Assembly (NCBI GenBank): GCA_946477855.1
Contig: CAMKZU010000001.1
Span: 1 to 64,000, forward strand
Source: an uncultured Lactobacillus sp.
GTDB taxonomy: Bacteria > Bacillota > Bacilli > Lactobacillales > Lactobacillaceae
Direction of reading: 5' to 3'
Length of the DNA stretch: 64,000 nt
The notes beneath the pieces were generated by a model. It worked only from the letters and a program-made list of their open reading frames with translations. It was not told the DNA's origin and searched no databases. The position numbers and the translations under genes were made by a program. Shown one piece after another: positions 6,201-39,725 of the stretch. The first letter of the stretch is position 1; each line of letters begins with the position of its first letter.

Positions 6201-9200
6201 GCTTGATTAATGGCGTTGATAGCATCATTCTTGTTACCAAGTGAGGATTTATTTATTAGTAAGTTGTTTAAAGCGTCGATACCATCTTTAGTGGCAGTAT
6301 TGACATCGTCAAGAGTGTTAGTCTTAGGATCATCAATCTGGTCCTCGTAGCCAGTCTTGTTGCTATTAGCTAATAAATCCTTAGCTGCTTGCTTTGCTTT
6401 TTCAATATCATTAGCAGTCAAGCCCTTAACTTTTTCAAGCTTACTTTCAACATCTTTTTCAGCTTGATCAAGTTGCTTCTTAGCAGATTCTTTGTAGGCT
6501 GCTAAAATAGCTTCCTTACCCTTAGTAATATCACTACCAATGTCACTGGCTGCGGTGTGTCCAGCTATATCATCTTCAGCCTTCTTAGCAGCAGCATCAA
6601 TACCAGCATCTGTGTCAACACCAAGATTGCTCTTAGCTTCATCTGCATAATCTTGAACTTGCTTCTTAGCAGATTCCTTGAAACTATTCCCAACATTTGT
6701 CTTACCATCTTTTAAGTTGCCAGTAACCATTGCAACGGAACTTGACTGACCAATTAAAGTATTGGCGTTATTAACAGCTTGATCAATATTATCGTCTGAT
6801 TTTACACCAAGTGCACCTTTATCGGTATTAGCCATGTCAGTAAGCTGTTTCTTAGCAGCTGTCTTATAGTTGTTTAGGACGTTGGTCTGACCTGTAGTCA
6901 TATCATTCTTGATATCATTAAAATCAGTGTGACCATCAATAGCTTTTGCAGCATCACTAACTGCCTTATCAATGTTGGTGTCGGATTTAACTCCAAGACC
7001 GGTTTCAGCAGCAGTAGCGTCTTTTTGAACTTTAGCTTTTGCAGCATCCTTTAGTTCGCCTAAAATGGTTGATTTGGCATCATTTTCAGCCTTAACTATG
7101 TCAGTAGCATTGTCAATGTTATCCAGTTCTTTCTTTAAAGCTGGATCAATAACTGAATCAGGTGAAGGAATACCTAAAGCAGTCTTGCCCTTTTCAGTAT
7201 AACCAGCAACTTCGGCTTTTGCAGCTGTCTTATTAATCTTGTCATTAACTGCTTTTTGGATTCCTGTAATGTCATCAATAGTGTTAGCTGGATTATAAAT
7301 TGAATTCTTATCATTCGAAGGATTTGCTAAAGCGGCATTTTCAGCGCTAGTAATGGCGTCAATGTATGGCGCCTGTTCATTTTCAGTTAAGCCTGATTGC
7401 TTCACGCGATTAATTGCGTCTTGTGCAGCGGTATCAATAGCTTGTTTTGCTGTATCTTTGGCCTTTTCAGCAGCTTGAAGTTGATCAACCACTTTCTGTG
7501 CTGGATCCATAGCATCTTTTAAAGCTTTTAATGCAGCTTCTTCACGTTTAGATACTTCATCTACGTTTCCTGCACCATATACTGACTTACCTGAATCGTA
7601 ACCAGGATCCGATGCAGTTTGTGCTACTTTTATAGCGCTATTAATTGCATTTTCAAGAGCAACTTGTTCTTTAGATTTAGGATTAGACTTAGGAAATTGA
7701 CTATCTAAAGTATTGGCATCTTTAATTTTCGATTTAATATTATTAGCTGCAGTGTCCTGTGCTATTTTTAAGATGCTCACAATTACTGGCCGTTCTTTGC
7801 TCTCTACATCCAATGGATTGTATTCAATAAAGTTAGCGGTAGGTGTTAGTTTAATTTTAGTGTTGGAATTAATCTGACTAACAATATCAGCAGGTACATT
7901 AACCTTAAATATATAATTACCATTTTCAGATTTGGTAACTTCACCTGCAAACTTAGTTGGCAAATCATCAGCATCATTATTCGTATATTGATATGGAGGA
8001 TCATCGATCTTATTATTTAAGCTTATTGTACCTTTTCCACTATCTATCTCTGCCATGATATATGCTTTAGTGCCAAGAGGTAAAATCAGTTTAAATGGGT
8101 TCTTTGGGTCTGAATCAGGTCCATCCTTTTCATTCTTATAACCATCTACAATTCCAGAAATTGTCCAAGAACCATCTTTTTTGCCGGAAGCATCAACATT
8201 TGCTTTGGCAGTAACACTTTCAGGCTTGATATCTAAAAATCCAGAAGAATTAGCCGGACCAAAGGCAATATCATTATACCCAATGTTAGTTGGATCAGAG
8301 AAAGCAGCAGTAATAATATCAGAGAAAATTTTATCAAAGCTTATTGGTGTATTCAATTGAGCCATTTGATTTAGATAGTCTTTAATGTTGGTTAATTTTG
8401 GATCTTGAAAGTAAGGTAATTTTTGAATTTTGCTCCACTTTTCAGGTGTAAACATGTATTCGCCATTTTTACCACCTTGTCCATTAAGCAATACAAGTTT
8501 ATCAACCATAATGGATTTATCTTTATGAACTTGTAAAACATGGAATGGTGGTAAAGTTAGACCCTGATCACCTAAAAAGTTTAATTTCTGGCGCACATTA
8601 GTAATCGTGATAGCATTATCACCAATAATGCTAGTGCCAGAAGAGTGGTTAGCAGAACAGTTTAATACTAATGAAGTAGGGTTATTAACAATTAACTTAC
8701 CATTACCTTCGACATTAACTAAAATTATATCGTTTGTACCGGCTCCGGTTCCGGCTCCAATAGATTTATCACCATTTAGCCGAATATTGAAAGCACCATT
8801 TTCAATATCAGCCTTATTACCAATATTAACTAATGTACCCTTATAATCACCCATATCTTGACCAGTAATATTTAAGGCACCATTTGGTTTAACAGTAAAG
8901 TTACCCTTATCTTTTATTAAATAGCCACTATTATTACCTGAGATATCGCCATTAGTTGTAATGTCTACTGTTCCACCAGTGCCATCACCATTGCTGTCAA
9001 TAACAAATTCGGTGTTACCATTATTTAAATTAATAGCTTGAGCTTGTTTTTTGTCAAGCTTTCCAGCGTAATCTGATTGTCCCAGATTAATTGTTAAATG
9101 ACCTTTAACGTTTACAGAACCTTTACCATTGATCCAAATAGCATATATAGTACCATGTTCACCACTATTTGCGTTAAATTTGCCATCATTATTCTTAAGA

Positions 9201-10582
9201 GGGTTTAAAGTTACGTCTGCACCTTTAGCGATATAAACATTATCATTATTACCATTCATTTCAATAGCAGTACCGTTGAGAGTGTTGCCGACAAACTTAC
9301 TACCCTCATCAAAATAAAGTGAATTGTAAGCACTAGTAAATTCAAATATTTGCTGGTTATCTCCGCCGCCCTTAGCTTGTGAACCATCTACAAGGCTCGT
9401 GTAAGCATTTCTAACTTGGTCAACAGTAACAGTGTCTTTAATATGGATTTCGTTATGATCTCCAACATATAAAACCTGTGAACCATGGAAGTCGACATCA
9501 TCAAGAGTTATTACAGCCGTATTATCTGTATTATCTGGATAAGTAGTATAGCGATAGTCATTTGTTCTTGCTACCCCATAAAAGTCTGAACTCCAAATAG
9601 TAACATTTTTATAGGTCAGGTCTAACTTTTCCCTTCCTTGTAAATTAGGATGAGAGCCCTTAAAATCAATAATGTGTCTTCCACTGCCGCCTGAAGTAAT
9701 TAATAATTTGCGACCAGGAAAATGTATATTCTTCTCAGTCTGTGTGGTGACATCAGACACAATATTATTCATAATATCAATTTCATTAATAACAGTGCCT
9801 TCAGGCAAATATTTTTTATCTAATGTCAGCGCAGTTTGAAATTGGTGCCATGTTGTTACTTTAGCAACATTTCCAATAATAAAAGGTGTATAATCGTCAA
9901 CTTTTGTCTGAACTGCTTTCCCATCTAATCCTGTTTTATCAGTAGTAGTGGTGGTATCTTCATCAGAAACAGTAGTATCCTTATCTGAATTAGTATCGCC
10001 AGTCACATCAGCCGGCAACTTACTGCTATCAGAATTTTGATCATCCGAACCAGTTATGTCAGTTGGAGTCTTATCAGTAGTGGTATCTTGATTGCCTTCA
10101 TCTGAGCCAGTTGCAGGAGTAGTTGTACTATTACCAGTTGAATCAGCTGTAGTGGTTTCCTGCTTATCTTTATCTGCAGTATCCTTACCAGCTTTATCTT
10201 TGGTAGTATCAGCCTTGTCCTTAGCTGTAGTATTTTTTACTTCATCACTCTTTGAATCTTTTAAGAATGAACTCAAACCTGAAAAAGTTGACAAGTCAGT
10301 CTCAGTCTTCTTCTTAGAAGCAGTGGCATCAACCTTAGTTGTATCCTTAGTACTTGTTTCTTTAGTTTCAGTATTCGACTTGTCTCTATTAGACTCCTCA
10401 CTTACTTGTTGGGCAGGTTCAACAGTGTCGGCTTTTACGCTTTGACTATTCAAACCAAAGAAGGTGAAACCTAACAAAACAGAAGCAGCACCAATACTCA
10501 ATTTACGAATTGAGAAGTGATCCTGCTTGTCCTGCATCTCCATCTTTCTTAATCTTTCATTGTAATTATTTTTACCTAGCAT
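215..10582 (-). CDS. Giant YSIRK-signal surface adhesin: beta-helix-like N-terminal region, long DUF1542/FIVAR-like helical repeat stalk, C-terminal SLAP domains
   Basis: Signal motif FSIRKLSIGAASVLLG; start moved from 10657 to ATG at 10582 (MLGKNNYNERLRKMEMQDKQDHFSIRKLS) because of a good RBS (aggaagga); two copies of the LMHNAYLYD...AGNID...LKHNAYIYNQ...KKANF SLAP module at the C-terminus; no LPXTG seen. Confidence 0.9.
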   Translation of the reverse strand: MLGKNNYNERLRKMEMQDKQDHFSIRKLSIGAASVLLGFTFFGLNSQSVKADTVEPAQQVSEESNRDKSNTETKETSTKDTTKVDATASKKKTETDLSTFSGLSSFLKDSKSDEVKNTTAKDKADTTKDKAGKDTADKDKQETTTADSTGNSTTTPATGSDEGNQDTTTDKTPTDITGSDDQNSDSSKLPADVTGDTNSDKDTTVSDEDTTTTTDKTGLDGKAVQTKVDDYTPFIIGNVAKVTTWHQFQTALTLDKKYLPEGTVINEIDIMNNIVSDVTTQTEKNIHFPGRKLLITSGGSGRHIIDFKGSHPNLQGREKLDLTYKNVTIWSSDFYGVARTNDYRYTTYPDNTDNTAVITLDDVDFHGSQVLYVGDHNEIHIKDTVTVDQVRNAYTSLVDGSQAKGGGDNQQIFEFTSAYNSLYFDEGSKFVGNTLNGTAIEMNGNNDNVYIAKGADVTLNPLKNNDGKFNANSGEHGTIYAIWINGKGSVNVKGHLTINLGQSDYAGKLDKKQAQAINLNNGNTEFVIDSNGDGTGGTVDITTNGDISGNNSGYLIKDKGNFTVKPNGALNITGQDMGDYKGTLVNIGNKADIENGAFNIRLNGDKSIGAGTGAGTNDIILVNVEGNGKLIVNNPTSLVLNCSANHSSGTSIIGDNAITITNVRQKLNFLGDQGLTLPPFHVLQVHKDKSIMVDKLVLLNGQGGKNGEYMFTPEKWSKIQKLPYFQDPKLTNIKDYLNQMAQLNTPISFDKIFSDIITAAFSDPTNIGYNDIAFGPANSSGFLDIKPESVTAKANVDASGKKDGSWTISGIVDGYKNEKDGPDSDPKNPFKLILPLGTKAYIMAEIDSGKGTISLNNKIDDPPYQYTNNDADDLPTKFAGEVTKSENGNYIFKVNVPADIVSQINSNTKIKLTPTANFIEYNPLDVESKERPVIVSILKIAQDTAANNIKSKIKDANTLDSQFPKSNPKSKEQVALENAINSAIKVAQTASDPGYDSGKSVYGAGNVDEVSKREEAALKALKDAMDPAQKVVDQLQAAEKAKDTAKQAIDTAAQDAINRVKQSGLTENEQAPYIDAITSAENAALANPSNDKNSIYNPANTIDDITGIQKAVNDKINKTAAKAEVAGYTEKGKTALGIPSPDSVIDPALKKELDNIDNATDIVKAENDAKSTILGELKDAAKAKVQKDATAAETGLGVKSDTNIDKAVSDAAKAIDGHTDFNDIKNDMTTGQTNVLNNYKTAAKKQLTDMANTDKGALGVKSDDNIDQAVNNANTLIGQSSSVAMVTGNLKDGKTNVGNSFKESAKKQVQDYADEAKSNLGVDTDAGIDAAAKKAEDDIAGHTAASDIGSDITKGKEAILAAYKESAKKQLDQAEKDVESKLEKVKGLTANDIEKAKQAAKDLLANSNKTGYEDQIDDPKTNTLDDVNTATKDGIDALNNLLINKSSLGNKNDAINAINQARDNAIKEINDKAKYPNLSDGDRNSLINTIKADATEGVDNVNKDTDPAKITADKQAAIDKINSVKATASSKDLAGLNKEKSSQLKALQDAATNAKDAIDKIPDKYLSPSNKQYYKDLIDKHAASATNAINSASNKDAMDTAEKDGESNINGDLVLGQVTAAKAQAIAELNAEKDTDKGIVNDAHKNGTLSDDDWVKDLDDIDNAYTTAITAVSNDHTPADVVTDKNTGINAMKAVADSVSQDKDKVDLAKAKNNAIADLEDQAQALHDHIQADPNLSNTEKNNYFDQISSTLNNAKQAVSAADKNTVNSAHNAGIEDLNDIRNNADLQSARDKALTDLQHEFNTDNAAIDGLTNISTAGKAGIKTDLQNAYNDAVKKVKDPTSNTVAKINSQSDAGITNMENILGKAKGLDKTISDDKQKLNDYAQKAIDRINSSTMSDADKGAATTNIQKARDDAQAVVGKQLTVEDANKAEKDGETSILQAEAKANKADMDKAKNEAKAKIDGAQKTALQNLKDAYGALTDDEKKQAQAAYDKAVKDIPALAEQAEAAIDKAFDKDTISGLTNDAINSINTTGDTANVAMTKVVAVQAVKDAAQAAKDKLTNKRDKDGVDDVAKLGIADINAATTSSTVLQIKDNALNSIKNIKDSGTGDASADDALWAKKNKANAELAQELADTDSAIDKLTDLTADQKKQFKDQAQAAHDRAHIRIEGAAETDIETEKGLGKDKIDKALSDAKFQAAKNVAKADVDKTADNAIDKVNKDNTISKDDKDKIIININNDRDKAKDKIDHAETPDDINNAQQNGKDDINKEINHQGDNGNGNGTDTAQIAKDKQTAKDNIQTAADKINDRIDKDEKDGKLNHDQAKALKDKVTEAVDKAKGAISQAGDPTTINKAQNDGNNALNEITSDVEKTEAVNKALGKLTDAVNVANGKADELGKNDKELAKQMKDAIEKERAKAAKNIQNAQNDAKNPIKAIENAAQDGVNAITGLTDNYGNKVDHIKTLKDAANKAKDDLNKLKTDENGNDVLDENELAQGEADIDNAVQNGISNIYQASADDDLDKIEKDAEHAVELAKLPTKLLAEKNKQIAAINQYAAAAEKTIDGFAQTDKNKAGLPADTIAELKAQVEAAKNKAISKINDVTLAKGASEDAFNDANTKVDNAEKGIPEGNETVDFGEAGIDKVKKLAQQKADIVKAKNDAIARLEQKHQEEINAIENSGMSAADQKPLKDQVDKLVEQAKDQIINIPDKDENGKDKTPEQVTSEANTIIQNTVDGFDENGNKVTGIKDIVDQAKLEGAKTTAETILNDKRAQAHDVIKGSQLTADQKQKATDAIDKAFTDEKSDIDGKKDIKDVPTNKDEIGKAIDAICTKPSEWFADEQKNALTGTDGVAGLQSGLDKLTSGQKADPDYKDYLDDINNAITAINKAENIKDASSAYDKGMTSLNKLNALQEVKNEANKAKTDIDNNDKLDDNTKDRLKGDVDKVVEDTKDKINQIDSSNGTAASNKDKIDQIKNDAHNDINVVINDAEAEGDPNVSHANSEISQNHSDAVDTIHNEFGDDSKTPKTDDAYEKNKHVHSSSQNGINSDKTNADKEISKGAIDDAVDIAKDKVNHLKHEDGTDYTDADKNKINEQIDKDAKDAKDKIDKADNVTDIDNIRGNGIHQIHQDCSDTSTIDKILHGDNNNNGGGIATPIQPVIPAKNPTADNTSNTNKDDGTKVDMSNSSDVTLMHNAYLYDETGKRANKITLGVGSVLTTYGTKTINGKVYYILVDKGAKNKVYYVAAGNIDHSTRKLKHNAYIYNQFGKRVKKTGVYKKGKLIKTFGAAVKIRGKKYFIIGKNRFVKAANFAKGVVAAGTAKAEVVPTSAVAEKPQVTVEKTLMHNAYLYDKNGTRANKLIFQAGSQVGTVGKKTVNGKVYYELPDGMFIAAGNIDAKKLKLKHNAYVYNQYGHRANKKVLKKRKSVKTYGNSVKINGKRYFIISKGRFVKKANF

Positions 10583-26296: not shown

Positions 26297-26439
26297 TTTT
26301 GCTCCTTTGATTCATTTAAATTCACCTAACTAATCTAGTATAATGTAAAAATAAAATATGTGTAGTTAAATGGTTAAAAACTCGTTTTCAGTTTGTGGCT
26401 ATGCTATAGTTGATAATGATTTTAAAGCGAGGGAAGAAA

Positions 26440-27792
26440 ATGAGTTTTAAGTCTGTAATAGCAAAAAGCGCGGGTAAATCAAGTTACTGGTTTTTACATA
26501 ATGTGTTAAAAGGCGGTACCAGTTTTCCCGGCAAATTAGCAATGGACCTGGATCCTGAAATTTTAAAAACACTGGCTGAAGGATATGAAACGGTTATTGT
26601 TACCGGTACAAACGGCAAAACCATGACTACAGCTTTAATCGTGGCTGCACTAAGAGAAAAATATGGCGATGTTTTGACCAATCCATCGGGTTCCAACATG
26701 CAACAAGGAATCGTGACCGCTTTTTTGGCACATAAAAAGAAAAAGTCTTCGAGACCAATTGCAGTGTTAGAAGTTGACGAAGCAAATGTCAAAATGGTGA
26801 CAGAACTGCTTCATCCCAGCGTTTTTGTTTTAACCAATATTTTTCGCGACCAAATGGATCGTTACGGTGAAATCTACACCACTTACGATAAAATTGTTGA
26901 AGGAATTAAACTGGCACCTAAGGCCACTATTATCGCTAATGGTGACGCCAGTATCTTTTCTTCAGTCGACTTACCTAATCATAAAATTTTTTACGGCTTT
27001 AAACTGCCTAGCGATGAGCCGCAAAATGACAGCAAGGCTCCTGTCAATACAGATGGCATCTTATGCCCTAAGTGTGATCATATTTTACATTATCATGAAC
27101 GTATTTATGCCAACTTGGGAGATTTTTTCTGCCCTAACTGCAACTATCACAGACCCGAATTAACATATTCTGTTAACAAAATCATTGAGCAGTCACCAAA
27201 TAAACTCAAATTTCAAATGGGCAAAAAAGACTACAGCATTAACATTGGCGGCACTTACAATATTTATAATGCTCTAGCAGCTTATTCTGTGGCGCGCTAT
27301 TTTGATCTCAGTGAAGATGAAATTGCTCAGGCTCTTGCTAAAAACAAGCGGATTTTTGGCAGACAAGAATTAATTAAATATGAAGGAAAAGAGATTGACC
27401 TGATCTTAGTTAAAAATCCGGTTGGTCTAGATGAGGTGCTGCACATGCTTAACACTGAAAAAGATGATTATTCATTAGTAGCCTTGCTTAATGCCAACCA
27501 CGCTGACGGCATTGACACTTCTTGGATTTGGGATGGTCAATTTGAAGACTTAAATCACGATCAAATTAAAAAGATTCTAGTTGGCGGCGAGCGCTGGCAC
27601 GACATGGGCTTTCGTCTGGAAGTTGCCGGTTTTGATCCGGGTAAAATGGTTACCTGCACCGACAATGAGGAAGTAATTGCCAATCTTGCTAATTTACCAA
27701 CGAAAAAGATTTACATTTTGTCTACCTATACTGCTATGCTGTCTTTACGTAAAACTATGGCTGAGAAAAAGATGATTAAGGCAGGGATGTAA
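26440..27792 (+). CDS. murT: Lipid II isoglutaminyl synthase Mur-ligase subunit MurT
   Basis: VTGTNGKTMTTALIVAALRE; Cys4 ribbon CPKCDHILHYHERIYANLGDFFCPNC; ATG at 26440 has gaggga RBS. Confidence 0.9.
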   Translation: MSFKSVIAKSAGKSSYWFLHNVLKGGTSFPGKLAMDLDPEILKTLAEGYETVIVTGTNGKTMTTALIVAALREKYGDVLTNPSGSNMQQGIVTAFLAHKKKKSSRPIAVLEVDEANVKMVTELLHPSVFVLTNIFRDQMDRYGEIYTTYDKIVEGIKLAPKATIIANGDASIFSSVDLPNHKIFYGFKLPSDEPQNDSKAPVNTDGILCPKCDHILHYHERIYANLGDFFCPNCNYHRPELTYSVNKIIEQSPNKLKFQMGKKDYSINIGGTYNIYNALAAYSVARYFDLSEDEIAQALAKNKRIFGRQELIKYEGKEIDLILVKNPVGLDEVLHMLNTEKDDYSLVALLNANHADGIDTSWIWDGQFEDLNHDQIKKILVGGERWHDMGFRLEVAGFDPGKMVTCTDNEEVIANLANLPTKKIYILSTYTAMLSLRKTMAEKKMIKAGM

Positions 27793-27816: not shown

Positions 27817-27857
27817 AACCCGCAAAGTGTGTAATGAAACATTTTGCGGGTTATTTT
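27817..27857 (+). terminator. Terminator of murT
   Basis: aacccgcaaagtg...cattttgcgggttatttttatttt. Confidence 0.8.
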
Positions 27858-27898
27858 TATTTTGTATTTTGTTTATAATTCAAATTTTAATAATTAAT

Positions 27899-28975
27899 TT
27901 ATATTTTTATAGGATTATAATTCACTGAACTTATCTTATTAAATGATAAATGACTAATATCAACTTCAACATCTTTATCATCAAATACTACTAAATTATA
28001 ATCTTGATTTTCCTTTGATGTCATTGCACTGCCGTACTTTATTCCACTATATTGTGATTTTATAACGTCACTTATATATTGAGTAGGTAAGTAATCTAAA
28101 GAGTTGTACTGACTTCCACTTGGTTTTCTCATATCCTCACAAATTGAATTAAGAATATCGCGATTTATTTGATAGTCAATTAAAAATTCTGGATCCATAC
28201 TACTACCAAATACTGAAATGTTATCTAGTTTCGTTAAATCAACAATTTCTAAATCCTTCTTTAATGTAAATTTTCCAGTTACTACCACATCTCCAACAGC
28301 AGGTCTAATTTCATCAATTGTTAATGACTTATTACTTGATAAATATAAAACTCCTATTCCAGTTGAATTTAGCCTACCAGCAGAAACAAGACTTTTGGGG
28401 GGTATTTTCATATCTCCACTTTGATAATTTTTTCTTTTATTGTCATGATCTATTCTTGAACGATAAAATTTTGTCCCTGCCTTTATAATAATTTTCGTCC
28501 ACTCTAAAAATTTTAAAAATATATCCGGTCTAAAATAATTATTATAAAATCTATTATGATATTTTATATCTTTACAAAAGTCCTTCCAGCTATGATTGCC
28601 CAGTATTGATCGATTACATCTTTCACTTTTCGATTCCAACTGTGGAATTATTGTAATTGATGACACTGGAAAATTATTATTAAAGAGAGCAGTCAAAAAT
28701 TTTTGTATTTCTTCTGCATTAATTGCAAATATGTTCCAATCTTTTTCCAACGAGCTAAAAGTATTTGTTAAATGAACAGAATTTTTATATTTTTTATCTA
28801 CATCTTCTTCATAAACTGACAAAAGATTCTCAAAATCATCTTTAAGTCCAATATCTGAATTAGTATCAAAAATATAATCTACTTCATTATGAATGTCACA
28901 AACATCTTTATGGTTAATTCTTTTAATTCTTTCTATTATATCAGTATCTTTAAAACATTTGACACAAACTTTCAT
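27899..28975 (-). CDS. RES-domain protein with putative zinc-finger (CVKC...CDIH) and HEPN/RES-type N-terminus
   Basis: GTKFYRSRI...MKIPPKSLVSAGRLNSTGIGVLYLSSNKSLTIDEIRPAVGDVVVTGKFTL matches RES-fold arrangement. Confidence 0.75.
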   Translation of the reverse strand: MKVCVKCFKDTDIIERIKRINHKDVCDIHNEVDYIFDTNSDIGLKDDFENLLSVYEEDVDKKYKNSVHLTNTFSSLEKDWNIFAINAEEIQKFLTALFNNNFPVSSITIIPQLESKSERCNRSILGNHSWKDFCKDIKYHNRFYNNYFRPDIFLKFLEWTKIIIKAGTKFYRSRIDHDNKRKNYQSGDMKIPPKSLVSAGRLNSTGIGVLYLSSNKSLTIDEIRPAVGDVVVTGKFTLKKDLEIVDLTKLDNISVFGSSMDPEFLIDYQINRDILNSICEDMRKPSGSQYNSLDYLPTQYISDVIKSQYSGIKYGSAMTSKENQDYNLVVFDDKDVEVDISHLSFNKISSVNYNPIKI

Positions 28976-29883
28976 TTTTTTCTTTCATCTAAATATCTAT
29001 TCATAATTTCTAAATGATGCATAATTGAGTATTTTTTTAATACCCCTAATCCGTGATACAGTTTGGTATCATAATTTTCTCTTAAAATATCAGCTCCCAA
29101 TGAATGATTTTTCTTGGGCTGCCTATCATACCAAACTGCAAATTTTTCGAGAGCCTCAAGTACCTTAGCATTTGGATCCCTAATATCTGAATTACTATCA
29201 GAAGTAAAGTGATGAATTCGAAGTTCATCTTTGTCACCAAAATAAACTAAATGTATTGAAACAGCTAATGGTGCAAAACCATGGTCATTGTACTCCTTTC
29301 CAATTATTGAATAATCACTAAAACCAAAATAACCAGCATTATTAAAGATTTGATGATCTATTGAAAATAACTCATCTTTCTTTTTTAAATAATCTGCGTT
29401 ACGTTCCTGTTTATTAAACTTGTCATCTAATAAAATAAGCTTTTTTGCATTTTGAAATTTCATTTTAAAAGATGTATTATCTGGTATTATTTTAAGCACT
29501 TTATCGTTATCGATTTTTGAAACATCTAGATTAAAAATATCCGAATCTAGAAAAACAGCCGCTGTTTCTTCAGTAGACATTTTTTGTAATATATCAATAT
29601 CAGACTGCGATTTTATAATTCTACCTTTAATAAAGAATTTGCTGTTTCTCGCATCCTTAAATTCCTTCGTATTAATTTTCTTATAGGATCCCACCTGAGC
29701 GTTCTGAATAGCCACAAATTTTTTCTTGTTATCTATCATGTACAGCACTAGTTTTTTAAATTGTGATTTTTCATTTACAGGCTCAATAATTGGCACAATA
29801 TTATTATTAATCTTTTTATTCTTAACTAGTTCTTCAATCGCCTTCAATTCAAATAATTTTCCGCGTAAGTATGGAAAGTACAT
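28972..29883 (-). CDS. sce7725-like / beta-family protein
   Basis: MYFPYLRGKLFELKAIEELVKN...VPIIEPVNE; ATGA overlap with downstream RES gene. Confidence 0.7.
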   Translation of the reverse strand: MYFPYLRGKLFELKAIEELVKNKKINNNIVPIIEPVNEKSQFKKLVLYMIDNKKKFVAIQNAQVGSYKKINTKEFKDARNSKFFIKGRIIKSQSDIDILQKMSTEETAAVFLDSDIFNLDVSKIDNDKVLKIIPDNTSFKMKFQNAKKLILLDDKFNKQERNADYLKKKDELFSIDHQIFNNAGYFGFSDYSIIGKEYNDHGFAPLAVSIHLVYFGDKDELRIHHFTSDSNSDIRDPNAKVLEALEKFAVWYDRQPKKNHSLGADILRENYDTKLYHGLGVLKKYSIMHHLEIMNRYLDERKK

Positions 29884-29896
29884 AATTTAACCCCTT

Positions 29897-30745
29897 TCAC
29901 TTATATTTTTCCTGTAGTCTCTGATTTAGTTCTTCAATTTGTTTTTTCCGATAATCGGAAAAATAAATTACTTCTCTTAAGGCAGGCGAAAAACTTAATA
30001 TTAACGAATTATTATCCTTATATTTATTTAGATAACGGAGTTTAAGCATAGTAGTTAGTTCCTGCTGAGCTATCTCAATCGGTAGCTGTTTAAACATTTT
30101 TAAGCTATCTCTAAAGTAATGGAAATCATCTGCGTTTGATAATTTACCAAAATATTTCAACAAAATTTCTTCATATTCTTTTTTTCTCAATATTTTGAAT
30201 ATTACTGTATGATCGAGAAAATTATTGTATTCATTTGCTTCTCGAATTTTCTTTATAGTGTTTCTTTTAGTTAAAACATATAATCCTACATTTTTATTAA
30301 GTACAGCTTTTTCCACTTTTTTTAGATGAGCTTCATCCATAATGACGTTAACATAAGTAAATGCTTTATAATAATCTAGCAGTTGGCCTTTTAGTCTTTT
30401 TAGGCTATCTAGTCCACTTTTTATTTCGAAAACTTGAGCTTTACCATTTATTAGAATGAAATCAGCAATTGAATTACTGATCGGGAGTTCTCTAATTGCA
30501 CTAGTTGTATTTAAGCTATGTCTACCAATTAATAAATTATTTAATAACTGATTCTTATAATAATATTCATTACGATAATTTCTTTTCATGAAATTATAAA
30601 TGGCGTCAAAAGCGTCCTCTTGAGTTTCAATTTGCTTTGAAAGAGAATACTTATCAATTACTATTTCATTGATCGCACTTTTTCCGCTAGTCAAAATTTG
30701 ATTTATATTTGTTTTTGTGAAAACACGATTAATTAGAGAATCCAT
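29897..30745 (-). CDS. sce7726-like protein with PD-(D/E)XK nuclease-like core
   Basis: IADFILINGKAQVFEIKSGLDSLKRLKGQLLDYYKAF (D...ExK...Q pattern); first gene of the cassette. Confidence 0.7.
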   Translation of the reverse strand: MDSLINRVFTKTNINQILTSGKSAINEIVIDKYSLSKQIETQEDAFDAIYNFMKRNYRNEYYYKNQLLNNLLIGRHSLNTTSAIRELPISNSIADFILINGKAQVFEIKSGLDSLKRLKGQLLDYYKAFTYVNVIMDEAHLKKVEKAVLNKNVGLYVLTKRNTIKKIREANEYNNFLDHTVIFKILRKKEYEEILLKYFGKLSNADDFHYFRDSLKMFKQLPIEIAQQELTTMLKLRYLNKYKDNNSLILSFSPALREVIYFSDYRKKQIEELNQRLQEKYK

Positions 30746-30765
30746 TATATAACTCCTTTAAAAAT

Positions 30766-30794
30766 ATTATAAATGGCTACCCTTACAATCTCAA
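30766..30794 (-). promoter_or_regulatory. Promoter of RES/sce7725/sce7726 cassette
   Basis: TTGAGA (30789-30794), 17-nt spacer, TATAAT (30766-30771) on minus strand; RBS aaaggag follows. Confidence 0.65.
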
Positions 30795-30861
30795 GTGGTA
30801 TTAAACCTAGTATGGATAAATTTAATTTTTAAAAGAGTCAATTAAATAATAAGTTAAGACT

Positions 30862-32463
30862 CTACGCATCGTTTTTTTCTATGTTAAAGATCTTGACGTT
30901 GTTTTCTTGTGCTATTTTTTTGTTAAAGTTGTGAGCCACTTCAATAACAATTGAAGGCAACTGGTAAATTAAGCGGTGTACTTCATCAGCATTTTGATGA
31001 TCCAGGCTAGAGGTAATTTCATCTAGTAAAAAGATCTTCTTATGACGCAGCAGTCCTCTGGCAACAGCCAGTCTCTGCGCTTGTCCACCTGAAAGATTGC
31101 TACCTTGTTCTTTAATTTTAAAATCTAATGCTTTGCTGTCTAGCTCTTTGTATAAACCTACCTTTTTCAGAGAAGCAACTAATTCTTCGTCTGTGAAATT
31201 TTGCAAAAGAGAAAGATTTTCCCGAATCGTTCCTGCAAATAACCAGATATTCTGTGAAATAAACACAAAATCTGAATATTTCAATTTGTGTCCGCCAAAT
31301 TTCACATCACCCATTTCAATTGGAATGTATCCTGCTATTGCATTTAGCAAAGTCGATTTACCAACACCCGAGGGTCCAGTAATAATCATTTTGTCGTTTT
31401 CATTTAGGCTTAAAGACAGGTTTTTAAAAATTTCTCGGTCACCACGTTTAACCGACAGGTTTTCAACAACCAGTTTATTGTCAGTTCCTGGCTGAGAAAC
31501 TTCTTGATTCATTTTTGTTTCAGTCCATGAAATCTTTCTAATTCCTTCTGTACTTTGAATTTGAGTTTCAAAATTAGTCAGTTGCCGGAAACCACCAATC
31601 ACGTGATCCGCAGTAAGAGTCAAGGTAAGAATCGTACTTACTGTGACCCCTAAGATGCTGTTTTTGGCCATCCAAAGCCCTATGAAAATCGGAGTTAAAG
31701 TTATTAATATGGCAAATAACCAAGAAATAAACTGCAGAACATATTGGAAAGCATTCAATTGGTAATATCTTTGTTCCTCATCGTGCAAAGAATGATCAAA
31801 TTTCTGCATAAATAGTTTTTTAACGCCAAAATTCATAATTTCAAAACGCCCTGAAAATAAGTCACGCGTAATCTCTAAAAAATTGGAATTAGAATGGCTC
31901 CACATGTCTGTCTTAATTTTCATCTTTTCTTTCCCCAAATAACTGGGAAGAAGCGACATGAACGATAAAATTAAATAAATCAGACCTAAAACCGGATTAG
32001 TCATTAATACTACAACTGTAGAAGATATGACCGTCATGAGACTTTGAAAAAGCAATAAAAGCGGTTCAAAGTACTTTTCTTCTATCTGTTTGGAAATACT
32101 AGTCATGTTGTTCAAAACTTCAGATGAATCCAAATTAGGATTGTTAAATGAACTGGCAAAATTTGCCCTAAAATAAATGCCTTTTATCTTTTCATTTAAA
32201 ATCTGAATTGCTTTTTGCATTAACAGGCTAAATAAGAAAAGAGAAACATAAACGGTTAAATATGATAAAACTGCAGCTATGCCAAATGCAATCAAACTGT
32301 TTCCGTCTTTGACGTTAAGTCTGGGAATATAACCTAAAATATAACCATTTAATACTCCTTCAAAAGAACTGGTAACGCCAAAGATAAATAAACAAAGTAT
32401 CATCCATGGATTAAGATTGCTCAAAACCCATTTTAGTGTGACATTTACTTCTTTTTTGTTCAT
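30862..32463 (-). CDS. ABC transporter, fused permease/ATP-binding protein
   Basis: N-terminal TM helices; GPSGVGKSTLLNAIAGY; LSGGQAQRLAVARGLLRHKKIFLLDEITSSLD. Confidence 0.92.
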   Translation of the reverse strand: MNKKEVNVTLKWVLSNLNPWMILCLFIFGVTSSFEGVLNGYILGYIPRLNVKDGNSLIAFGIAAVLSYLTVYVSLFLFSLLMQKAIQILNEKIKGIYFRANFASSFNNPNLDSSEVLNNMTSISKQIEEKYFEPLLLLFQSLMTVISSTVVVLMTNPVLGLIYLILSFMSLLPSYLGKEKMKIKTDMWSHSNSNFLEITRDLFSGRFEIMNFGVKKLFMQKFDHSLHDEEQRYYQLNAFQYVLQFISWLFAILITLTPIFIGLWMAKNSILGVTVSTILTLTLTADHVIGGFRQLTNFETQIQSTEGIRKISWTETKMNQEVSQPGTDNKLVVENLSVKRGDREIFKNLSLSLNENDKMIITGPSGVGKSTLLNAIAGYIPIEMGDVKFGGHKLKYSDFVFISQNIWLFAGTIRENLSLLQNFTDEELVASLKKVGLYKELDSKALDFKIKEQGSNLSGGQAQRLAVARGLLRHKKIFLLDEITSSLDHQNADEVHRLIYQLPSIVIEVAHNFNKKIAQENNVKIFNIEKNDA

Positions 32464-35686: not shown

Positions 35687-37320
35687 TTAAAAGTTTGCTT
35701 TCTTAACAAATCTATTTTTATCTACAATGTAATATTTTTTATTTTTAATTTTGATGGGATCACCATATGTTTTTGCTGTTGAACCTTTTTTCAAAACTTT
35801 CTTATTCTGGCGATCACCATATTGATTATAAATGTAGGCATTATGTTTTAATTTACGGACTACAGGATCAACATTACCGGCAGCAATGTAATATTTTATG
35901 TTGCTATTGCCCTTATCATTTAGAACGTAAAAATTGCGTCCGCTGATAGTCGTTTTACCATAGGTCATTAGTTTCGAACCAATTTTTAAAATAATTTGGT
36001 TTGCACGAGTACCAGTATTGTCATAAAGATAAGCATTGTGCATCAACACTACAGTCTTTTCGCTGCTTGAACCGTTATTATTGTTTTCGTCTTTGTCCTT
36101 ATTTTCATCATTATTTTCCACTGGATTTGTCGGCTCAACCGGAACGGGATTAGGAGCAGGATAATTATTGTCGGTATCATCTGGTGGTGTTACTAGTTTT
36201 TTCCAAGTATAAGCACCCGGCTTAAGAGATCCATCTTGACTTTTTTGGATTAATTCAGCAGTAGTTAGTTGAGGTTCGTTATTATTATTGATTAATCGCC
36301 ATTTGTTGATAAAGTTCTCTTTATTCGGTGTTTTTTCAGGATTCGGTTGCCCCAAAGCCACATAGGTACTTAATTTTGTTACACCATATCTCTTATTCTT
36401 TTTTATTTCATTGTGAACGTATTTCCACAGATCAAGTATTGGGTATAAACTTGTAGCTAAAACTGAAATCCATAATTTGAATGCAACAATGTTCTTAGTT
36501 ATAAGATAACAAATATAGAAAGAATTTTGTACAGGTTGAATTTGTACGGGTTGAGACTGAATAATAGAATATAAGCCAATAAGACTTACTGACATAACTA
36601 AAAAATTTTTTGTACACATTACTATTGCTTCTGAATAATTTTTTGAGATTTTTTGAGATTTTGTCAAGGAGTATACATATGTCATTACTGCAAATACATA
36701 CAAAAGAACTTCAAAGACCAATAGTATGATTGTGTCAGTTAAATTTTCCATACTAAAACTAACATCGACAATATTTATTTTTGCTTTAAAAACAAAAAAC
36801 GAAATTATCGAGACAATACTAATGAATAATACCGTTATTCTATTAAACGATTTTTCTGCATCTGGTTTTTTAACTTTAAAGTCTACATTTAAAGATAAAG
36901 AATTATCTGTAATAAAATTCCCAAATTTTAAGAATGTCCATGAAAGAAATATAGAAAAAGCAATATATACAATTGAGTATACAAACATTACACACCAATA
37001 ATAATCTTTTCTGAAGACTTGCTTTATTAGCTTTACCAAAAATTCAAATGAAAGAATAGCAAAAATTAATCCAAAAAATAAGCCAAACAGGGTAGAAAGA
37101 ATCTCTACAATTACTATAAACGAAGAGTCTTTATTTTTTTGTTTGTTAAGCTTTTTAAAAGCAAATAATAATCAGTTATACAAATAATCATAACTATAAA
37201 AAAATACTTAAAGATATAACTAATCGGTATGCATAAAAGCAAAATGACTGCAAGACAAATTAAAGGTATTGCGCATATGTGTTTCAAAATAGAATTATTT
37301 TTTCTTCTCAAACGTTTCAT
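35687..37320 (-). pseudogene. Multi-TM membrane protein with C-terminal SLAP domains, split by an A7-run frameshift
   Basis: 37114-37320 (RBS agagg, ATG 37320) and 35687-37039 are in different frames; the second frame is open through the T7 (minus: A7) run at 37134-37140; adding one A joins them. Track start at 37039 is TTG without RBS. Confidence 0.7.
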
Positions 37321-37503
37321 TTTATTTATCCTCTTTAGAAATTAATTTATGATAACAGATTAAAATCAGGATAGTCTATTAATATTTATTATCTTTAGTT
37401 TGGTATTGTTAATTAATTTATTATGTTTATATACAATTTAGTATTTCATATAAAAGTATGTGGTATACTTTCACTAATAATAGTGGTTACAACGAGTACT
37501 ATT

Positions 37504-38166
37504 ATGATTTCAATGACATTATATAAAACCTATACTTGACAATTTAATAAAAGTGAGAAAATTAAACATAAAAATAAAACAATTGGAAAAATTTCCCAAA
37601 AAAGTAGGAGTAAATTTATTGATAATATTAAATATTTTGAATACGATTGTACTTTTAACGAAATATTTGAAGATGACATACAAATAGAAATTAATAATGT
37701 ATTACAATCTTTTGATGAATATCAGAAGATTAAAAAATTTAAAGTTTTTTATTTTCCCAGTAAAAAAACATTAATTGTGCGTGCTCCATCTCAAATTAGT
37801 AATAATTTTATTGAAGCTGTCAAAAGCTGTTTTTCTCAAAAAGTTAATATTCAAGGTACAATGAATTATCCGTTCGATAAACTGCAAAAAAAAGCCAGAA
37901 GTATGCGCGGCTTATATTTTTCTGTTAAACAAACCAATATATCTTCAAAACATTTTTTTGGTCCAAAAGTTGAAAGTGACAAAGAAGCTTCAAAGGCCAT
38001 AAACAATAACAAAGCTACCTATTTGATGTTAAAAATAGATATTTTAAAGAAGAGTAGAACTATAGGTTTCTCAAAAAAAGTTACACTCGTGTTATACAAT
38101 GTTTCCTTAAAAGACTCTTATCTTCAAATAACAAGCGACGTGCTTCACGCTATCAAGTTATGGTGA
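37504..38166 (+). pseudogene. Unknown ORF interrupted by an in-frame TGA at 37537-37539
   Basis: Frame ATG(37504)...TAT ACT TGA CAA TTT AAT AAA ... open through to 38166; ORF track starts only at GTG 37777. Confidence 0.55.
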
Positions 38167-39010
38167 TGTAGATAAAGTTATTTATTATTTTTTTAAGAGC
38201 CTTTTTGTCATCAACAGTAGTTACTGTTAAAGAGTTAGTTTCGAAATCGATATCTAATTTTGTATCTGATTTATCATTCTCCATTATCAATGTTTTAATG
38301 TCAAGTTTTCTGTCAAAAACTATATCATTTTTATTCAAAGACATATCCTTAACAATATATTTATAAAGTGGACAGTAATTTTTCATTTCTATTCTTGAAG
38401 ATAATGCTGTGCCTTTAAAATCTATATTTTCATTTTTTTTTAAAATCGTATAATTCAGGAGTTAAATTACTTATTATTTCTACAACTCTTATAAAAATAT
38501 CAGTAACGGTATTTGAGTCATTATCTGAAACAGAAGTATCAAATGACAAAAATAATTGTGGACTCGAATCATCTAAGTATTTGCTTAATGAGATAAATAT
38601 TGGAATATGTTCAATATTAATTTTTATTTCTATAGTTTCTGCAATTTGCTCTATATGCTCTAAATAAAAATTTTTATTTTTTTCCAATTCTTTTATAAGT
38701 CTGTTGCTAATATTCTGCAAATTAAAATCAGTTGCATAATATGCTTTATATTCATCTTTAAAAATAACGGTATCATTCTTTGCGTGTGCATATATTTTTC
38801 TTAAGAATAAAAAAATCCTTTTTGAATTATTATATAGATATGAAAAAAGCGTATATATTACTGGCGCTATTTTCAATAGAATCATGAAACTAATAAAAAA
38901 GTTTATTTTTTTATTTGTCTGTATTTCTGTATGAACTATTGATATTATTGTGAATATAAGAATTACTACTGAAACAAGTAAGCCAAGATCATGTAAGCGT
39001 TTTTTAACAT
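38153..39010 (-). pseudogene. Unknown TM-anchored protein (~285 aa if repaired), broken by two A-run frameshifts
   Basis: RBS aaaggag and ATG at 39010; adding an A to the A6 run (39000-39005) opens the frame into ORF 38430-38885; removing an A from the A9 run (38433-38441) continues into ORF 38153-38386. Confidence 0.65.
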
Positions 39011-39725
39011 TGTTTTTCTCCTTTTAATCTATTTTTTTAAAAAAGCTTTAATATATTTGAATCAAAAATTTTTAAATAAATATTAGTCATTAGACTTTAA
39101 TTATATAATACTTTAAATATTTATTTCATGACTATTTTATCTGAATAGCCTGATATAAAATGTGCGAAATTTTCTTTAATTTGATAGAACATTCCAGAAT
39201 AACATTGCCCACACACCAAGTCACGTTCTTAGCTAATGTTATTTCTTCAGTAACTATTGTCTTATCCATTGTAATAAGGTTATCTACCTTATCAGCTGCT
39301 AAATTGGTTTTATATCTGGCTTAGTGCGCCACAAGCATATTTAAATCTTGTTTGAAAAATACTTTGAGATTTTCTGTTCCATGGGATGCTTTCCACCATA
39401 TGTGCCCTGCCCTATACCCAGAGAGCTAATATATTTACGCTAATTGCAAGGACAATTACTTATTCTCTTATTCTATAAAAAAGAAAATTTGTACCGATTT
39501 TGCAGTTTCAAACAAAAAAGAAAGTCCAAAATAGACTTTCTTAAGGTAAATAAACTATAAATTATTAAATCTCTGAACACTTGATATTATAGCACTTTTC
39601 AGTACTTAACTATACCAATTTTAAGATATTTTGACTAATCCACCATTGCCAAAAAATTGCACCGAATTTTGCACGTATTGGGATAATTTCAGTTAATTTC
39701 AAAAAATGGCAAAAAATAAAAATGC

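Follow-up and report, generated by a model that had tools for sequence, protein, structure and literature searches.

A mobile three-gene operon uniting relatives of the P4 CII and Beta proteins with a RES-domain protein is a candidate anti-phage system

What is the role of a compact operon of three AT-rich genes lodged among core genes of an uncultured Lactobacillus species? The stretch of DNA analyzed herein, called the window, comprises 64,000 nucleotides (positions 1 to 64,000 of contig CAMKZU010000001.1, assembly GCA_946477855.1). An earlier note on this DNA, made from the sequence alone, proposed that the three gene products form a single abortive-infection or interbacterial system composed of a nuclease-like protein, a partner protein, and an effector that targets NAD+. 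Our follow-up leads to a more specific explanation, which we regard as probable by a modest measure. The trio would be a horizontally acquired anti-phage operon, in which a Beta/CII-type module carries a RES effector in place of the membrane toxin Gop.

The cassette is a three-gene operon on the minus strand (30745-27899) whose genes are read in the order sce7726, sce7725, and RES. The first gene (29897-30745, minus strand) encodes a 282-aa protein of family NF033832, which is predicted to be PD-(D/E)XK nuclease-like and is homologous to P4 CII. The second (28972-29883, minus strand) encodes a 303-aa protein of family NF033831 that is a remote homolog of P4 Beta, and the third (27899-28975, minus strand) encodes a 358-aa protein with a zinc ribbon, a helical N-terminal domain, and a RES domain (PF08808), as judged from profile matches and residue patterns. 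Only 13 bp separate sce7726 from sce7725, and the sce7725 and RES genes share an ATGA stop/start overlap (28972-28975, minus strand) that likely couples their translation. All three open reading frames match curated family models, and the gene structure described in the earlier note, including this overlap, is confirmed. So is its impression that the cassette is AT-rich, with a GC content of approximately 27-29%, whereas the core genes to the left of the cassette have 38-41%. The promoter proposed there fares less evenly. A putative sigma-70 type promoter, TTGAGA-17-TATAAT, is indeed present upstream of sce7726 (30766-30794, minus strand), agrees with the consensus at 11 of 12 positions, and is plausible by its location, but it gains no statistical support because promoter-like sites in this AT-rich region are no more common than in shuffles (24 versus a mean of 22.3).

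The cassette lies between murT and an ABC transporter gene, and comparison with related genomes reveals that it is a clean insertion of approximately 3 kb. Four relatives with flanks 94-96% identical to those of the window (G017, G456, G019, and G460) carry an empty site, where the sequence matching window positions 27870-27887 runs straight into position 30872. Because these genomes join window position ~27872 directly to 30872, the inserted segment spans approximately 27873-30871, with ends accurate to about 6 bp. The cassette is also absent from three more relatives at approximately 87% identity. The segment begins just past the murT terminator, and inserted sequence takes the place of a few codons at the end of the ABC transporter gene, whose reading frame still closes. 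The terminator hairpin itself (27817-27852; -16.5 kcal/mol, z -6.3, when folded on the cassette strand) is ancestral to the site, is found in the empty-site relatives, and is now common to murT and the convergent cassette. The same cassette is present in L. laiwuensis, with proteins 99% identical to those of the window. Between these two copies, the dN/dS values are 0.09 for RES and 0.07 for sce7725, and both frames are under purifying selection, whereas sce7726 has just three differences, which are too few to judge. Chance clustering of three open reading frames was rejected on the basis of this selection and the conservation of the trio. A single copy of RES is present in the source assembly, which is approximately 67% complete. 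The genes murT and gatD usually form one operon. In the window, murT (26410-27792) has no adjacent gatD, and the sole GATase_3 (GatD-like) gene found resides on another contig (G000:C4:13803-14384).

The putative effector is the product of the third gene. Its match to PF08808 (1.7e-11, 44.8 bits, gathering cut-off 23.2) locates the RES domain to approximately residues 166-340 of 358. Alignment of 15 RES homologs reveals no variation at R172, R174, R201, Y211, E222, or S316 and almost none at N327 (each present in 14-15 of 15). The RES toxin NatT has the active-site residues R23, R82, Y93, S184, and N193 (PMC11535050), whose counterparts, matched by spacing, are R172/R174, R201, Y211, S316, and N327. 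A mark of the RES family is the presence of Y/N in place of the usual S/E (PMC9503650). Bona fide Xre-RES toxins were sought in Bacilli for mapping these residues by alignment, and because none scored above the cut-off, the assignments rely on residue spacing and on the numbering in the literature. RES toxins use phosphate to split NAD+ (PMC11535050), and the conserved residues suggest that the third gene encodes an NAD+ phosphorylase effector.

The remainder of this protein was described in the earlier note as a putative zinc finger combined with an uncharacterized N-terminal region, perhaps of HEPN/RES type. The former is retained in our analysis as a zinc-ribbon-like start formed by C4, C7, C26, and H29 (C or H at position 29 in homologs), together with the RES domain. 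The latter is not, since the window protein has no match to Pfam HEPN or HEPN/RES-NTD1 models. For the same reason, a HEPN RNase was rejected as its N-terminal domain. One homolog (L060) matches HEPN_RES_NTD1 at 6e-5, which is below the Pfam cut-off, and the N-terminal part may resemble this helical domain, which is shared with HEPN proteins, without being a HEPN RNase. The combination of zinc ribbon, HEPN/RES-NTD1, and RES, which is the architecture of the third gene product, was recorded in 2013 by comparative genomics (PMC3710099); the passages on it do not name sce7725 or sce7726 partners or a system. Long stand-alone RES proteins (approximately 450 aa as annotated in L190) also occur on very many Klebsiella and Escherichia plasmids (L190 and L193; H55-H75), where the gene is flanked by parAB-type genes on one side and a Y-family polymerase gene on the other. 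Neither sce7725 nor sce7726 is annotated beside the stand-alone gene at the L190 and L193 loci examined.

The first gene ties the cassette to a known system. Its product is a member of NF033832 (4.6e-50, 170 bits, curated cut-off 70), matches the PADLOC "cll" model (1e-19), and in tblastn searches against phages finds the cII gene of satellite P4. Because P4 CII scores 151 bits against the sce7726 model, well above the 70-bit cut-off, CII and sce7726 constitute one family. The PD-(D/E)XK core recognized in the earlier note is substantiated by the motif E86-D95-E107xK109-Q121xxxY125, in which E86, D95, E107, K109, and Q121 are invariant and Y125 nearly so among 25 homologs including P4 CII. An AF2 model (pLDDT 94.6) places these residues on the expected strands (82-109) and helix (118-126). 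The best fold matches are all PD-(D/E)XK proteins (NucS, AF1548, SfsA, and EndoMS), and these matches are weak (probabilities of 0.72-0.99 and E values of 0.01-0.1 for NucS, AF1548, and SfsA). We predict from these features that sce7726 is a nuclease-like protein.

The relationship of the second gene product to P4 is more distant. The protein clearly belongs to NF033831 (2.8e-84, 283.5 bits, curated cut-off 60, covering residues 2-298 of 303), in agreement with the resemblance to sce7725/beta-family proteins first noticed. P4 Beta falls outside this NCBIfam family, and the window protein does not match PF14350 (Beta protein family) at the Pfam gathering score. Alignment of sce7725 to a P4 Beta profile with hhalign nevertheless spans 292 columns (95%, P 2.2e-8, 11% identity), which indicates remote homology over the full length. 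Since this homology is of the profile-profile kind only, we consider sce7725 a homolog of Beta and not a member of PF14350. Among PADLOC models, there is also a weak match to the C component of PD-lambda-2 (0.0049). The AF2 model (pLDDT 88.5, pTM 0.90) consists of alternating strands and helices. Its PDB matches are mostly TIM-barrel enzymes with low TM-scores (0.3-0.4), and a better match is seen to an uncharacterized Gordonia phage protein (E 4.4e-10, TM 0.63 by query length). The modeled fold therefore appears TIM-barrel-like, and the invariant polar residues E34, N61, D154, D190, H211, H225, and H290 suggest a ligand or catalytic pocket. Profile searches of PDB sequences with all three proteins returned nothing useful.

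These relationships matter because the gop-beta-cII genes of P4 guard E. coli against phages lambda and P1 (Rousset et al., PMC9122126), and the same paper refers to earlier work in which gop proved toxic when beta was absent (PMC9122126). The reading of the trio as a Beta/CII-type defense module is based on this demonstrated anti-phage activity, on the membership of sce7726 in the CII family, and on the homology of sce7725 to Beta. Both systems are mobile, comprise three genes with the CII-like and Beta-like genes adjacent, and conform to a toxin-plus-partner logic (PMC9122126). However, Gop is a 133-aa membrane-type protein, whereas the trio has a RES enzyme in its place. Likewise, the P4 genes are convergent and the trio genes are codirectional, and sce7725 is much diverged from Beta. 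The PADLOC gop and beta models find no match in the trio, and P4 gop matched itself alone among the open reading frames of the first 76 loci and the window; thus, a gop gene hidden elsewhere in the cassette was rejected. Given the absence of gop and the remoteness of Beta, the trio is not a member of gop-beta-cII, although it may act in a similar way. The link to P4, which is absent from the earlier note, supplies the main argument for defense and predicts which of the genes restrains the toxin.

Among the gathered loci, Beta/CII pairs take two forms. One is convergent as in P4 and has diverse neighbors (for example, ImmA/IrrE and Xre genes), and the other is the codirectional sce7726-sce7725 arrangement. 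At one locus (L073), a HEPN-like protein (8725-9432, minus strand), with a sub-threshold RiboL-PSP-HEPN match and an RNYIAH motif, is located upstream of Beta (7682-8713), at the position where gop would be expected, and is possibly another interchangeable toxin. A second point of comparison is PD-lambda-2, of which the trio is not a member but which likewise includes a Beta-related protein. There, the relative of the P4 antitoxin (C) is needed for defense and not for toxin neutralization (PMC9519451). PD-lambda-2 differs in having HigB-like and Xre-peptidase proteins (HigB/HigA-peptidase), both absent at the trio locus, and, as described, in having no CII-like component.

RES proteins are better known from another context, and it might be argued that the trio is an addiction-type toxin-antitoxin (TA) module, with RES as toxin and sce7725 as antitoxin, which mainly stabilizes the mobile DNA that carries it and plays no part against phages. 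Classic type II TA toxins include those of the RES type, the cassette is a mobile, AT-rich insertion whose counterparts are found on plasmids and in an integrative conjugative element, and no RES TA system has been implicated in immunity according to a 2024 report in EMBO J (PMC11535050). The trio also shares its RES active-site residues with the Xre-RES systems NatR-NatT, ParS-ParT, and MbcA-MbcT. However, no Xre/MbcA/ParS-type antitoxin is encoded at the window locus, the RES protein of the trio has an additional zinc ribbon and helical domain, and a third, nuclease-like gene is retained at every RES locus. Moreover, the P4 relative is anti-phage and some copies of the trio adjoin other defense systems. 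We consider a pure addiction function quite improbable. A classic Xre-RES module in particular was rejected, given the missing antitoxin gene and a score of 12.7 bits for the window RES protein against NF049844 (RES/Xre TA), where the cut-off is 110.

The proposal in the earlier note could have failed had the three genes not co-occurred in other genomes, and a broader survey revealed that they do. When genomes were sampled evenly by species, once from the class (400 genomes) and once from the phylum (399), sce7725 proved to be rare (approximately 2.5% of genomes). Excluding the window, 12 of 15 intact sce7725 loci in these samples are trios with the same order on one strand, one of them with a split RES gene; the remaining three are of an enterococcal type described below. 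A single-sequence scan of genome contigs yielded four loci only, and the curated-family samples gave more. Altogether, 102 sce7725 genes were gathered and reduced to 49 clusters at 90% identity. The trio is found in 30 of these with fixed order and strand (Bacillota, Mycoplasmatota, Pseudomonadota, and phages). Thirteen clusters, all on viral contigs and one ending at a contig edge, are codirectional sce7726-sce7725 pairs without RES, five are of the enterococcal type, and in one the order of sce7726 and sce7725 is reversed. RES adjoining sce7725 without sce7726 was never seen across the 49 clusters. Degraded pieces of all three genes in one genome (L051, G325) and an sce7725 fragment in another (L050, G430) are signs of gain and loss of the cassette.

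In the enterococcal-type loci (L047, L048, L049, L056, and L081, one of which is on an E. faecium plasmid), sce7725 lies behind a different, very conserved protein of approximately 222 aa that is PD-(D/E)XK-like, and RES is absent. This partner matches sce7726 weakly in profile comparison (75%, P 2.5e-5) and also has a D...ExK pattern, and the one example scanned has no Pfam match. No effector gene is apparent, and the arrangement forms a sister two-gene system.

The 13 viral pairs imply that sce7726 and sce7725 are the core of the system and that RES is a coupled effector. Together with the five enterococcal-type loci, they also establish that sce7725 must have some function other than holding RES as its antitoxin, and the pair may defend by itself with RES as a back-up. 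Taken further, the pair alone could constitute the defense, either as a direct-acting nuclease or through superinfection exclusion by prophages, with RES being a dispensable reserve or a fail-safe triggered by inhibition of the pair. The RES-less pairs, several of which adjoin phage repressors or integrases, are consistent with this possibility, as are the conserved nuclease residues of sce7726 and the approximately six gains or losses of RES on the sce7725 tree, at least four of which are forced by well-supported branches. However, 30 of 49 loci, and most of those outside phages, have RES in tight operon coupling, and the known harmful part in P4 is the toxin and not CII. We find it unlikely that the pair alone is the defense.

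Trios are carried by plasmids of Shinella, Rhizobium, Pseudorhizobium, and Moraxella, by a Salmonella integrative conjugative element, and by Staphylococcus, Macrococcus, a Mycoplasma MAG, and prophages or phage contigs. The association with defense genes that was anticipated holds at a few of these loci and fails at the window itself, where the cassette is surrounded by core genes and is outside any defense island. Specifically, the Rhizobium trio is directly downstream of a complete OloA-OloB pair (1.5e-104 and 1.1e-195; Olokun), the S. schweitzeri trio (L010) is downstream of a type I restriction enzyme gene, another trio (G529) has a ThsB-type TIR gene nearby (Thoeris-like), and the Salmonella element includes a caspase gene. 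The scan of 116 neighbors, which yielded these types and a few others, is descriptive. On an S. aureus plasmid (NZ_CP077929.1; L002, 5989-6852), a lone sce7726 gene without sce7725 or RES sits behind a type I restriction enzyme gene and looks like a deletion remnant.

The same neighborhoods bear on the interbacterial role also entertained in the earlier note, wherein the RES protein would be a contact-dependent or secreted toxin accompanied by immunity proteins. ART-fold enzymes do occur among polymorphic toxins. However, the loci examined include no trafficking domain, toxin-carrier gene, or other secretion or immunity architecture, the gene order with two conserved partners is constant, and the homologous system is anti-phage. 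An interbacterial function is highly improbable on these grounds.

If the trio is indeed a defense operon of the Beta/CII type, the sce7726/CII-like and sce7725/Beta-like proteins would form a sensing and restraining core. In the resting cell, the Beta-like protein, perhaps together with the CII-like protein, would hold the RES enzyme inactive. Infection would disturb this core, perhaps through phage nucleic acid encountered by the nuclease-like protein, and the released RES enzyme would split NAD+ with phosphate and arrest growth. We infer restraint by sce7725, sensing by sce7726, and an abortive outcome, as well as the NAD+ targeting, toxicity, neutralization, and defense ascribed to the trio. 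The outcome would then be akin to that of Thoeris, DSR2, short Argonaute, and CBASS-TIR, if RES removes NAD+ upon infection, although those systems use TIR or SIR2 enzymes and RES is an ART-fold NAD+ phosphorylase. Points against this mechanism are the remote link to Beta, the different gene arrangement, the RES-less loci, and the location of the window copy outside a defense island.

A broader and more tentative idea, to which we give somewhat less than even credence, is that a CII-like nuclease and a Beta-like barrel form a general phage-sensing and toxin-restraining chassis that is used across phyla with exchangeable killers. P4 would have the membrane toxin Gop in this position, PD-lambda-2 would combine HigB/Xre-peptidase with its Beta protein, and the trio would have the RES NAD+ phosphorylase. 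The RES version would confer immunity via NAD+ phosphorolysis to ADP-ribose-1''-phosphate. If true, this would be a departure from TIR or SIR2 chemistry. We found no description of the trio in the literature covered, which consisted mostly of open-access papers, such that an earlier description is possible; the accessible text of open publications that name sce7725 or sce7726 gives no mechanism. The trio probably represents an undescribed but widespread form of a known kind of bacterial anti-virus system. Two widespread "sce" families without an assigned function thereby gain a testable role and become tied to the old phage-genetics puzzle of gop, beta, and cII in P4. Immunity driven by RES, which according to a 2024 paper in EMBO J (PMC11535050) had not been shown for any RES TA system, also gains a concrete candidate in the trio.

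Elsewhere in the window, a stretch at approximately 36500-39500 has a GC content of 24-26% and few plausible genes, and is a candidate for recently acquired DNA. Beside it is an open reading frame (35687-37039) resembling that of a membrane or surface protein.
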